Translations under genes and position numbers: made by a program
Part shown: piece after piece, positions 1 through 2,309 of the stretch
Layout: each line of letters starts with the position of its first letter
Position numbering within the stretch: position 1 is the stretch's first letter
Notes under the pieces: generated by a model
The model's database searches: none
The model's input: the letters and a program-made list of their open reading frames with translations, nothing else
Told to the model about the DNA's origin: nothing
NCBI GenBank assembly: GCA_026391975.1
Contig: JAPLDB010000066.1
Location: 1 to 39,502, forward strand
Reading direction: 5' to 3'
DNA: 39,502 nucleotides
From: Bacteroidota bacterium
GTDB taxonomy: Bacteria > Bacteroidota > Bacteroidia > AKYH767-A > 2013-40CM-41-45

Positions 1-606
1 CATGGTGCTTCTGTTACGGCGCTCACAATGTATGATATGCTCAAGCCGATTGATAAGGGAATTGAAATCCTCAACATCAGACTTCTGGAAAAGAGTGGCG
101 GCAAATCTGATTACCTGGATTCATTTGCAACCAACCTGAAGGCTGTTGTGATCGTTTGCTCTGATTCTGTTTCTTCCGGTAAAAAGCAAGAAAAAGCCGG
201 AAAAACAATCCTCGCAAAACTTGAATCATTAAATATCAAAAACGCCGGTTACACCATCATTCCTGATGAACAAAATATCATTCGTGAAAAAGTTGAATCC
301 TTTAGCAAATCAAAAACCGATCTCATAATTCTTACCGGTGGCACAGGAATTTCTCCCCGGGATGTAACGCCGGAATCTGTCCTGCCCCTGCTCGACCGGG
401 AAATCCCAGGCATCATGGAAGCTGCGCGCGAATACGGTCAGGAACGAATGCCGTATGCTATGTTATCAAGGGGAATTGCGGGACTAATCGGAAAAACGCT
501 GGTCCTCACACTGCCCGGCTCTACCCGCGGTGCGGAAGAAACGATGAACGCCCTGTTTCCCTTTGTGCTGCATGTGTTCAGAATTGTGAATCATGAACCG
601 CATTGA
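1..606 (+). CDS. moaCB: Bifunctional MoaC/MogA molybdenum cofactor protein, 5' truncated by window
   Basis: The frame is open from base 1, so the gene starts upstream of the window. The first ~38 codons are the C-terminal end of MoaC (cyclic pyranopterin monophosphate synthase), seen as [20 protein letters not shown] and then KSGGKSDY. From about residue 47 of the visible part a MogA/MoaB-type domain begins ([13 protein letters not shown]), with the molybdopterin-binding signature [14 protein letters not shown], then MPYAMLSRG and LTLPGSTRG. MoaC makes cPMP from the MoaA product; MogA adenylylates molybdopterin before metal insertion. Such MoaC-MoaB/MogA fusions are known in Bacteroidota. The rest of the moa cluster probably lies upstream, outside the window. 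The stop is TGA at 604-606, followed 90 bp later by a tRNA gene. Confidence 0.93.
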
Positions 607-671
607 AAAGTTGCGCTGAATCTCAAGAATTCCAATTAGGGTAATTCATTTCTGAAATTCACTGATTCGAG

Positions 672-679
672 TATCTTTG
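672..679 (+). promoter_or_regulatory. Bacteroidota -7 promoter box upstream of tRNA-Ser
   Basis: TATCTTTG matches the Bacteroidota -7 consensus TAnnTTTG exactly and ends 16 bases before the tRNA. No convincing TTG -33 element is seen 17-23 bases upstream, so the call rests on the box and its position. Confidence 0.5.
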
Positions 680-695
680 CAGCCCAAAAAATTCA

Positions 696-781
<86 letters not shown>

Positions 782-786
782 AGATA

Positions 787-894
787 AATCAATTCAGGCT
801 CCGCAACAGCGGAGTTTTGTTTTTGAAGGAAGCAAGTTGAGTTTTCTCAAACTTGTGAACTGAAAAAACAAAAGCCGAATGGGCTGAATTGATT
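787..894. repeat. Nested inverted-repeat segment between the two copies of the tRNA-Ser 3' end
   Basis: AATCAATTCAG (787-797) pairs with CTGAATTGATT (884-894). Inside it, TTTTGTTTTT (815-824) pairs with AAAAACAAAA (864-873), and near the centre AAGTTGAG faces CTCAAACTT with one bulge. The whole 108-bp stretch could fold as one long imperfect hairpin, with the tRNA terminator as a side stem. It lies between two exact copies of 17 bases that span the tRNA 3' end. No reading frame in it looks real. It may be a small palindromic insertion or an ncRNA; function unknown. Confidence 0.4.
799..824 (+). terminator. Rho-independent terminator after tRNA-Ser
   Basis: The stem CTCCGC (799-804), loop AACA and GCGGAG (809-814) is followed by TTTTGTTTTT. 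It sits 19 bases after the tRNA and is well placed to end its transcript. Confidence 0.65.
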
Positions 895-925
895 CTGACT
901 ATGGGAGAACAAAGGATCATAAAAT

Positions 926-942: not shown

Positions 943-946
943 TTTA

Positions 947-1030
947 TCCTCCGTAGCTTTATCCTCCTTAGCACGCTGAAACCTTAACTTCGGATTCCTA
1001 AAGGAGGATAAAGCGAAGGAGGATTTTTTT
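947..1030. repeat. Left palindromic repeat of the GIY-YIG element
   Basis: Bases 947-969 and 1001-1023 form a 23-bp inverted repeat with two mismatches (14 bp perfect at 956-969/1001-1014) around a 31-base spacer. GCTTTATCCTCC occurs twice in tandem on the left arm (941-952, 956-967). The right arm runs into a T tract, and 1009-1030 is repeated exactly at 1331-1352 after the nuclease gene. The hairpin plus T tract could also act as a transcription terminator. Confidence 0.6.
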
Positions 1031-1068
1031 ATGTCATTTATTCATCGACAATTTACAATTATCAAATC

Positions 1069-1305
1069 ATGCATTTCGTTTACTTGCTCAAATGCTCCGA
1101 CAACACCATTTATACCGGTTGCACGGAAAATCTTGAAGAGCGTAAATCAAGACACGACAATGGATACGTGGCTTCAACTTGTAAAAAATTGCCCGTTGAC
1201 CTGATAAATTATTTTGCTTTTCAGGATAAGCAAAAAGCATTTTTATTTGAAAAATACCTGAAGTCCGGTTCGGGGATTGCTTTTAGGAATAAGCGCTTGC
1301 TTTAG
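1069..1305 (+). CDS. Small GIY-YIG nuclease family protein
   Basis: This 78-residue protein is essentially one GIY-YIG nuclease fold of the URI type. It has VYLLKCSDNTIYTG near the N terminus (the GIY and YIG strands), Arg and His in LEERKSRHDNG, and the metal-binding Glu in LFEKYLKSGSG near residue 62. The length is at the short end for this family. No DNA-targeting domain is attached, so the target, if any, is unknown. The gene is isolated and sits between two related palindromic repeats (947-1030 and 1299-1354); its TAG stop (1303-1305) lies inside the right repeat. It may be the nuclease of a small selfish element, but that is inference. No clear ribosome binding site is seen. Confidence 0.85.
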   Translation: MHFVYLLKCSDNTIYTGCTENLEERKSRHDNGYVASTCKKLPVDLINYFAFQDKQKAFLFEKYLKSGSGIAFRNKRLL

Positions 1306-1354
1306 CCTCCTTCGCTAAAGCTACGGAGGCTAAAGCGAAGGAGGATTTTTTTTT
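1299..1354. repeat. Right palindromic repeat of the GIY-YIG element
   Basis: GCTTTAGCCTCC (1299-1310) pairs perfectly with GGAGGCTAAAGC (1325-1336). An overlapping alternative hairpin pairs CCTCCTTCGCT (1307-1317) with AGCGAAGGAGG (1334-1344). Bases 1331-1352 are an exact copy of 1009-1030, including the T tract. The repeat contains the stop codon of the GIY-YIG gene and ends where the convergent CPBP gene ends, so it may double as a terminator. Confidence 0.65.
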
Positions 1355-1355
1355 C

Positions 1356-2309
1356 TTAATTATCTATTGCACTTATTTCGTCATTGGGTAGTCTGTTTTT
1401 TCTCTCCCGCTGATAAATAAACCAAAGCAGCCCCGCTGTAAGTATTACGCTCACCACTACTGAAGCATAATCGTTGTCTGTCCCTATCGTATCGGGATTC
1501 ACAGAAATTGAATTTTGCTTGTATAAATAGGATGCAATCACTGCCGCCCCATTGTTTATGAAGTGTGCAAGAATCGGCAGCCACAAGGATCCGCTCCATA
1601 AATATAAATAACCGAGCATGACGCCAAGCAACATGCGCGGAACAAATCCATAAAACTGCATGTGCATTGCAGAAAATAAAATTGCTGTTGCCCACACGCC
1701 CGTGTGTTTGCCGCCCGACCACTCCGAAAAAATTCGCTGCAATATTCCGCGGAACAATAATTCTTCTCCTAATGCCGGCAACACTGCAATCATCATCATT
1801 GCATAGACAAATTGAAACGGTGAATTGATAGCCAAAAACTTTTCAGTTATCAGCGCAGCCTGCTCCTCTGTAGCTTTCATCTGCCGCTCAAGTCCTGCAA
1901 GCCATGATGGAAGCACCATCCGTGAGTTCAGGTCTCCGATGAAATTAATCAATGGAACCGCTGCAATTAAAAGGATGAATACAGAAATAACGGAAATCCA
2001 GTTCGGTTTCCTGTTCAGGCTTAGATAATCCGGGGCACTAGAACCAAAGGTGTAAGCCAGAAACAGGGCGGGCAGTATAAAGGTGCCAATCTCACTGATC
2101 GTTTGAATTAGCTTCAAAACATCGATGGCAAGCGGATTGTCCAGGTCATTTAATAGTCCTTCAAGCTGTGTGGGATCAACGCCATAAACAACAGCGGCAA
2201 GCCCAAAAGCCACAATTGAGAACAGAAATCCACCTATGATGGCCATTCCTATCGTCAGTAAAAATTTAGATGAAGGCGAATTGTTCGCCCACATTGCCTT
2301 GAGTTGCAT
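1356..2309 (-). CDS. CPBP family intramembrane glutamic endopeptidase
   Basis: This is a 317-residue polytopic membrane protein. The CPBP (Abi/CAAX-type) motifs are in order: EELLFRG (EExxxR, the catalytic pair of Glu), FSAMH (FxxxH) and HFINN (HxxxN). Hydrophobic segments occur near residues 17-40, 65-85, 100-125, 165-190 and 280-300. The family includes prenyl-CAAX proteases and bacteriocin-immunity-like proteins; the substrate here cannot be inferred. The ATG at 2309 is supported by a TACTTTCG box (2330-2337, minus strand) about 20 bases upstream. It converges on the GIY-YIG gene and shares no operon. Confidence 0.88.
   Translation of the reverse strand: MQLKAMWANNSPSSKFLLTIGMAIIGGFLFSIVAFGLAAVVYGVDPTQLEGLLNDLDNPLAIDVLKLIQTISEIGTFILPALFLAYTFGSSAPDYLSLNRKPNWISVISVFILLIAAVPLINFIGDLNSRMVLPSWLAGLERQMKATEEQAALITEKFLAINSPFQFVYAMMMIAVLPALGEELLFRGILQRIFSEWSGGKHTGVWATAILFSAMHMQFYGFVPRMLLGVMLGYLYLWSGSLWLPILAHFINNGAAVIASYLYKQNSISVNPDTIGTDNDYASVVVSVILTAGLLWFIYQRERKNRLPNDEISAIDN

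Follow-up and report, generated by a model that had tools for sequence, protein, structure and literature searches.

Introduction

Genes of the I-TevI/Seg type are free-standing GIY-YIG homing endonuclease genes, in which a single nuclease gene is polymorphic at a defined conserved site. Tyrosine-integrase islands insert at tRNA and tmRNA 3′ ends, restore the tRNA 3′ end, and leave a displaced tail, and REP/REPIN sequences with RAYT have inverted hairpin termini around a small nuclease gene and a GTAG-like hairpin motif. Group I introns with LAGLIDADG endonucleases, also parasites of structured RNA genes, occur in tmRNA at the T-stem/loop (PMC11915505) and in CPR rRNA (PMC11270868). GIY-YIG proteins are found as well in short non-intron insertions of CPR rRNA genes, where they were reported to be sparse and outside homing (PMC11270868). 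Among open-access papers, no account of tRNA-attached GIY-YIG elements was found.

The window, the whole 39,502-nucleotide stretch of a Bacteroidota draft genome analyzed here, contains a short GIY-YIG gene behind tRNA-Ser. The locus is probably an old copy of a mobile element of ∼0.4 kb, with a GIY-YIG nuclease as its sole gene and tRNA and tmRNA 3′ ends as its target. The element shares with the I-TevI/Seg type the features given above and the catalytic fold, but it has no separate DNA-binding domain, uses several tRNA 3′ ends as targets, leaves the target gene whole, and carries hairpin termini and an internal copy of its target. The group I introns self-splice and encode LAGLIDADG enzymes, whereas the element needs no splicing and encodes a GIY-YIG protein. 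An Rfam scan returned tRNA and tmRNA only: no family matched the leader and no group I or group II intron core was found, the element sitting after the RNA gene. The CPR rRNA insertions, which come from the same phylum as some of the copies described below, are possibly kin of the element, but they lie inside rRNA, and no hairpin terminus or tRNA site is described for them (PMC11270868).

The tRNA-Ser Locus in the Window

The host gene of the element is a tRNA-Ser(GGA) at positions 696–781 of the plus strand (ARAGORN). Its last 17 nt (765–781) recur as an exact copy, AATCCCGCCCTCTCCGC, at 926–942 of the same strand, as found by repeat search and checked base by base, and the left hairpin starts within the next few bases. 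This displaced tail, which the original prediction overlooked, is the decisive feature of the locus, and it sets the true left boundary of the element at 942/943. The tRNA and its tail copy are parted by a structured spacer of 144 nt (782–925, plus strand; fold z −5.5, with 0 of 200 shuffles as good), in which a terminator-like hairpin at ∼798–815 is followed by T-rich DNA. The first 19 nt of the spacer are also present 3′ of the tRNA on contig C100. Tail copies of like kind occur at L011, L057, L064, L065, L109, and L040, the last two with an order of spacer and tail similar to that in the window. The best interpretation of the order tRNA, spacer, tail copy, element is an old insertion that was afterward parted from its tRNA, the spacer being probably the product of the later event that pushed the element off.

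The left terminus of the element (943–1030, plus strand) was located by folding and by a motif common to 48 of 68 relatives. It consists of a hairpin (946–952 paired with 1018–1024) followed by seven T residues; the stem has a GTA/GAA internal loop and GC inner pairs, and a nested hairpin enlarges the loop. Beyond the gene, the same motif is inverted in a right terminal hairpin (1305–1330, minus strand), which reads GCCTCC-GTA-GC-TTTA-GC-GAA-GGAGGC. The inverted right hairpin occupies the equal position in L011 and L065 and is visible too in L057 and L064. Inverted repeats had been predicted on both sides of the gene, and they are indeed present (946–969/1001–1024, 1299–1316/1319–1336, and 1306–1321/1329–1344), with folding beyond that of dinucleotide shuffles for the left region (943–1030; z −6.9) and the right region (1296–1352; z −4.3), neither being equaled by any of 200 shuffles. 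The right repeat can form two mutually exclusive hairpins, as had been proposed, and the TAG stop at 1303–1305 does lie within it; the latter is particular to the window copy and no family feature.

The 22-mer TAAAGCGAAGGAGGATTTTTTT is exact at 1009–1030 and at 1331–1352 (plus strand), by repeat search and base check, as originally noted, with no third copy in the whole window. It represents the 3′ arm of the left hairpin with its T-run, recurring beyond the right hairpin. The second copy pairs with 1307–1321 to give an alternative, terminator-like hairpin, and it stands where sister elements carry a second 20-bp tRNA tail, which the window copy has probably lost. The original prediction of a mobile cassette holds as to mobility. 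The reasons given for it do not, since the 22-bp copies are not insertion-site duplications; as read from the sequences compared here, the real signature is attachment to tRNA 3′ ends, together with tRNA-tail repeats and a terminal hairpin that covaries. The same prediction had named absence of the repeats elsewhere, together with conservation of the gene in place, as what would speak against it. The first half was found, the 22-mer core GCGAAGGAGGAT being present in the 3.6-Mb draft genome at the two window positions only; the second was not, as described below for the CPBP–tRNA-Ser pair. As a family-wide terminus the 22-mer is ruled out by this same count of its core.

A Domain-Only Nuclease

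The ORF at 1069–1305 (plus strand), taken from the ORF list, encodes 78 residues that match the Pfam GIY-YIG family at 8.9e-12. Nearly the whole protein is the domain, in agreement with its earlier description as the nuclease fold alone, and the AlphaFold model (pLDDT 97.4) likewise comprises the nuclease domain only. Residues Y5, Y15, G17, R25, H29, and E61 are invariant across 45 sequences and are all present in the window protein, which thus has both the fold and the Tyr/Tyr/Arg/His/Glu residues that define the GIY-YIG superfamily. The nearest solved folds are UPF0213 (1zg2), Slx1 (7cq3, rmsd 1.9), and the catalytic domain of I-TevI. Slx1 has extra domains and a partner, and, in contrast to the element, neither UPF0213 nor Slx1 is tRNA-linked in the present data.

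The GIY-YIG ORF is the only gene in the unit; no transposase such as an insertion sequence would carry was found in the window's unit, in sister units, or at occupied tmRNA sites. Searches of NCBIfam, PHROGs, PADLOC, and plasmids gave no match. Viral contigs contain distant relatives only (≤44% identity), and phages are therefore no obvious vehicle.

Attachment to tRNA and tmRNA 3′ Ends

An alignment of six close homologues (A2) served to gather relatives, and a genome scan gave 80 loci from Bacteroidota and many Patescibacteria; Niastella and Roseivirga pacifica are cultured carriers. A tRNA or tmRNA gene lies on the same strand at most 700 bp upstream in 62 of them; among loci with at least 600 bp of upstream sequence, the count within 700 bp is 59 of 70. 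The RNA genes are mostly tRNA-Ser, tmRNA, and tRNA-Ala, and rarely tRNA-Trp, -Val, or -Pro. In most of the other loci the terminus is immediately preceded by the tail of a tRNA or tmRNA (L042, L043, L052, L054, L060, L071, L080, L103, and L116). Adding the window and five loci from the relatives search to the 62 gives 68 A2-clade loci, in which the median gap from the RNA gene to the start of the match is 160 bp. The same association was seen in a class-wide sample drawn from a separate genome set. It was seen in 0 of 10 loci of another GIY-YIG clade (L016–L024 and L036) that the same search for relatives had returned. The distant clade A3, ∼33% identical to the window protein, is tRNA-adjacent in 22 of 29 loci, next to other tRNAs (Arg, Met, Asp, Asn, Leu, and Pro), and the association therefore extends past the clade of the window.

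The Terminal Hairpin

At the start of the element, CTCC[A/G]CC of the tRNA is followed directly by TTCG and then by a 6-bp stem, a GNA/GNA internal loop, GC pairs, and a loop. The full motif stands 3–5 nt past the tRNA end in 48 of the 68 loci, compared with 62 of 13,600 random positions (0.46%), and 7 of 39 other tRNA genes within the same loci bear it as well. The sequence of the stem is highly variable yet remains paired, with double changes at 8 of 8 pairs. The covariation score is 0.585, against 0.212 for shuffled and ≤0.146 for slid alignments; complete pairing here is partly by construction, the hairpins having been picked for full pairing, and the fixed-offset control is the unbiased test. 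When 295 genomes were searched with the terminus pattern only, 18 matches were obtained and the reversed pattern gave none. Most of the 18 lie exactly on the ends of tRNA-Ala, tRNA-Ser, or tmRNA, and more than half have a nuclease gene nearby. The genome of the window itself contributes one, at its tmRNA (L169), on a short contig in which no nuclease gene was detected.

In Bacteroidota the hairpin is often followed by a T-run, and both window hairpins end in one. This, and the restriction of the 22-mer to the window, is what would be expected of an ordinary small gene flanked by strong terminators. Such an explanation is hardly credible, given the tRNA-tail copy at 926–942, the tRNA or tmRNA gene in front of 62 of 80 loci, and the hairpin at a fixed offset in Patescibacteria even where the T-run is missing; it is also contradicted by the occupied and empty tmRNA and CPBP–tRNA-Ser sites described below.

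Two Architectures and a Copy of the Target

Two arrangements of the element were recognized. In architecture A, seen at tRNA-Ser in Bacteroidota (L011, L057, L064, L065, and the window), a left hairpin is followed by the ORF and an inverted right hairpin, and the unit ends with a 19–20-bp tRNA-tail repeat that begins in the T-loop, in place of which the window has its 22-bp repeat. L064 carries two such units in tandem. In architecture B, which includes most copies at tmRNA and tRNA-Ala and in Patescibacteria, the left hairpin is followed by a second hairpin (GGYGGAC-N-GTCCRC) and the ORF, and the end of the element lies close to the stop codon; a second leader begins within ∼3–10 nt of the stop in L186, L192, L195, and L081. 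Inverted right hairpins together with a 20-bp tail repeat are found in L011, L057, L064, and L065, and the right end of most others is without them.

The 3′ strand of the second hairpin equals the last bases of the element's own tRNA (TCCAC, TCCGC, ACCGC, or CCCGC) in 49 of 52 cases, against a mean of 26.8 and a maximum of 37 in 20,000 permutations; the rows are partly related, so that the observed count is inflated and the permutation values are not strict probabilities.

It could be asked whether the hairpins themselves are the mobile unit, similar to REP or MITE sequences, with the GIY-YIG protein mobilizing them by cutting single-stranded hairpins and the attachment to tRNA arising from structural similarity between tRNA and hairpin. 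Hairpin-only tandem arrays (L057 and L084), gene-less termini (L187, L181, and the own tmRNA terminus L169), hairpins inside displaced tRNA copies (L210 and L236), and the Slx1-like fold would all agree with this. We consider it unlikely, because the element starts almost always exactly at the tRNA end and no scattered copies of the window's repeat were seen in its own draft genome. The element also differs from REP/REPIN in having a GIY-YIG protein rather than a Y1 (RAYT) transposase and in its tRNA-specific site.

Two loci have further repeats next to the RNA gene. In L057, several terminal hairpins stand in tandem (period ∼34 bp) behind the displaced tail, ∼390–640 past the end of tRNA-Ser. 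Just past the tmRNA in L199 and L200, hairpin-bearing units of ∼80–100 bp, which in L200 are repeated, separate copies of the tmRNA tail, and the DNA directly between these copies contains no nuclease gene. Other elements can therefore make tails, a point against the main reading, and these units are possibly a second kind of tRNA-tail element.

Occupied and Empty Sites

Within one genus (g30), leader and ORF are present at the tmRNA 3′ end in six genomes, and most others have an ordinary terminator there; in one genome (L187) the leader is present without a detectable ORF. Comparison of L186 with L196 shows that the gene downstream of tmRNA is shifted by ∼0.57 kb, the segment consisting of leader and GIY-YIG gene only.

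The second site lies beside the window element. The molybdopterin-type gene upstream (28–606, plus strand; ORF list), inside which the contig starts, has no homologue with an adjoining tRNA-Ser in relatives, and synteny was therefore followed on the side of the CPBP (Rce1-like) gene (1356–2309, minus strand; Pfam PF02517). This gene adjoins tRNA-Ser(GGA) also in G004, G005, G007, and G009. The pair is occupied in G009; in G004, G005, and G007 it has no nuclease gene, with ordinary sequence after the tRNA. The empty syntenic site sought by the original prediction thus exists, and the gene is not conserved in place. Both the tmRNA genus and the CPBP–tRNA-Ser pair provide occupied and empty alleles at one site in related genomes, as is characteristic of homing genes. 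In the window the CPBP gene is turned the other way with respect to the tRNA, and a rearrangement therefore happened there. The occupied tRNA-Ser(GGA) genes of the window and of G009, a different genus, are identical at 86 of 86 positions, whereas the empty one of G007, from the same genus as G009, is ∼80% identical; the nuclease genes of the window and G009 are only ∼62% identical. Identity of the tRNA across two occupied genera would fit transfer or co-conversion.

Two copies stand at unrelated sites of a single genome (L086 and L103), and their homology starts at CTCCGCC. On a protein tree of partly related rows, the target label requires 26 changes, compared with a minimum of 10 and with 39.3 under shuffling, and rows from Patescibacteria and Bacteroidota are interleaved, with few well-supported forks. 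After insertion the tRNA or tmRNA is complete, and only the sequence just downstream is separated from it. Taken together, these comparisons make mobility of the element well supported.

The tail repeats begin in the T-loop, a classic crossover region of integrases, and tail copies without a nuclease gene exist. The element might in that case be the leftover of a tyrosine-integrase island, integrases using tRNA genes and duplicating their 3′ end, with the GIY-YIG gene as a passenger. This is very improbable, considering that occupied and empty tmRNA sites differ by ∼0.57 kb of leader and GIY-YIG gene only, that the terminal hairpin is constant across two phyla, and that a copy of the target lies inside the element. 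No integrase was found in the inserted segment of L011, L057, L065, or the occupied g30 genomes, which is again leader and GIY-YIG only. Compared with such islands, the element is small (∼0.4 kb), its inserted segment is without integrase, and its terminal hairpin is constant.

Where dS was estimable, dN/dS was 0.01–0.18, indicating that the protein is under strong purifying selection. Analogous values would be given by a stable, useful function, and this counts against a mobile element. Such a host function would have the nuclease act on tRNA or tmRNA transcripts, either in processing of the 3′ trailer or in damage control of tRNA-Ser and tmRNA, the hairpin being a processing or termination signal. 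The constant orientation behind the RNA gene, the T-run often following the hairpin in Bacteroidota, and stems that stay paired through G-T/G-U changes are consistent with it, as is the selection itself. Occupancy, however, varies within one genus, several copies may occur per genome, some copies have a tRNA tail but no tRNA, and the intact tRNA genes of most relatives work without a nuclease gene; a host-type function is therefore doubtful.

A Homing-Like Reading

The best reading of these sequences is that the element is homing-like, a GIY-YIG nuclease acting on tRNA 3′ ends together with hairpin termini. We infer a mechanism of cleavage and copying. The nuclease, perhaps recognizing DNA structure like its relative Slx1, would cut or nick the tRNA gene close to the 3′ end, and repair would then, as homing does, copy the element in behind a tRNA whose 3′ end is restored. 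The hairpins may serve in recognition or as termini of replication. At the locus in the window, 144 bp and a new tail would have come between tRNA and element in a later event, resulting in the displaced copy.

Three further points count against this interpretation. The enzyme has no DNA-binding domain beyond its fold, which is unusual for a homing enzyme. Immunity to self-cleavage is left unaccounted for, because insertion leaves the tRNA target uninterrupted. Most copies are without a clear right terminus or tail repeat.

A more specific and tentative proposal is that the element's own structured leader aims the minimal nuclease at tRNA 3′ ends. The second hairpin holds the last bases of the target (XCCRC) and, on its other strand, their complement, and pairing of RNA or single-stranded DNA, instead of a DNA-binding domain, might guide insertion, which would make this a new class of mobile element. 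More readily, the element is seen as a novel form of the homing type; that it makes up a class by itself is the less likely view. The target copy within the element makes guided insertion directly testable.

If the mobile-element reading is true, the element would be among the smallest autonomous mobile elements known, consisting of one 78-residue enzyme and hairpins, and would parasitize the tRNA and tmRNA genes of Bacteroidota and Patescibacteria while leaving them unbroken. It would give meaning to many genes annotated just as GIY-YIG nuclease and offer a minimal system for site finding by a domain-only nuclease. It may also account for the short copies of tRNA tails, the tandem palindromes, and the diverged tRNA genes of the two groups.

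Flanking Sequence and Other GIY-YIG Loci

Contig C100 of the same draft genome (G000; contig positions 1–1100; L167) carries a ∼90% variant of window positions 1–800, including tRNA-Ser, and the copy of the molybdopterin-type gene there, likewise adjoining tRNA-Ser(GGA), is 95% identical. This left-flank variant points either to mixed strains in the assembly or to duplication of the region. The contig breaks off 19 nt past the tRNA, which makes it unusable as an empty site. Among related genera, tRNA-Ser(GGA) falls into two clearly distinct sequence types (G000, G009, and G015 versus the other relatives), the genes of G000 and G009 being identical. Past the CPBP gene's coordinates, at 2380–2760, the window has an AT-rich intergenic region with repeated blocks (TTCAAAATTCC..TTCGATATTCATTTAACCCATATTTA), partly as inverted copies.

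In the second, distant GIY-YIG clade (L210, 140–640; L236, reverse strand, 1380–1900; L026; and L039), the gene lies between two copies of one tRNA (Arg or Pro). A palindrome inserted in the D-arm, or replacing it, disrupts the downstream copy, and in L039 the anticodon arm is disrupted in this way as well. In the genome of the window itself, other GIY-YIG genes stand directly behind tRNA-Leu(TAA) and tRNA-Met(CAT) on contigs C57 (L006 and L007) and C122 (L005), and the neighborhood of the tRNA-Leu contains palindrome-broken tRNA copies.
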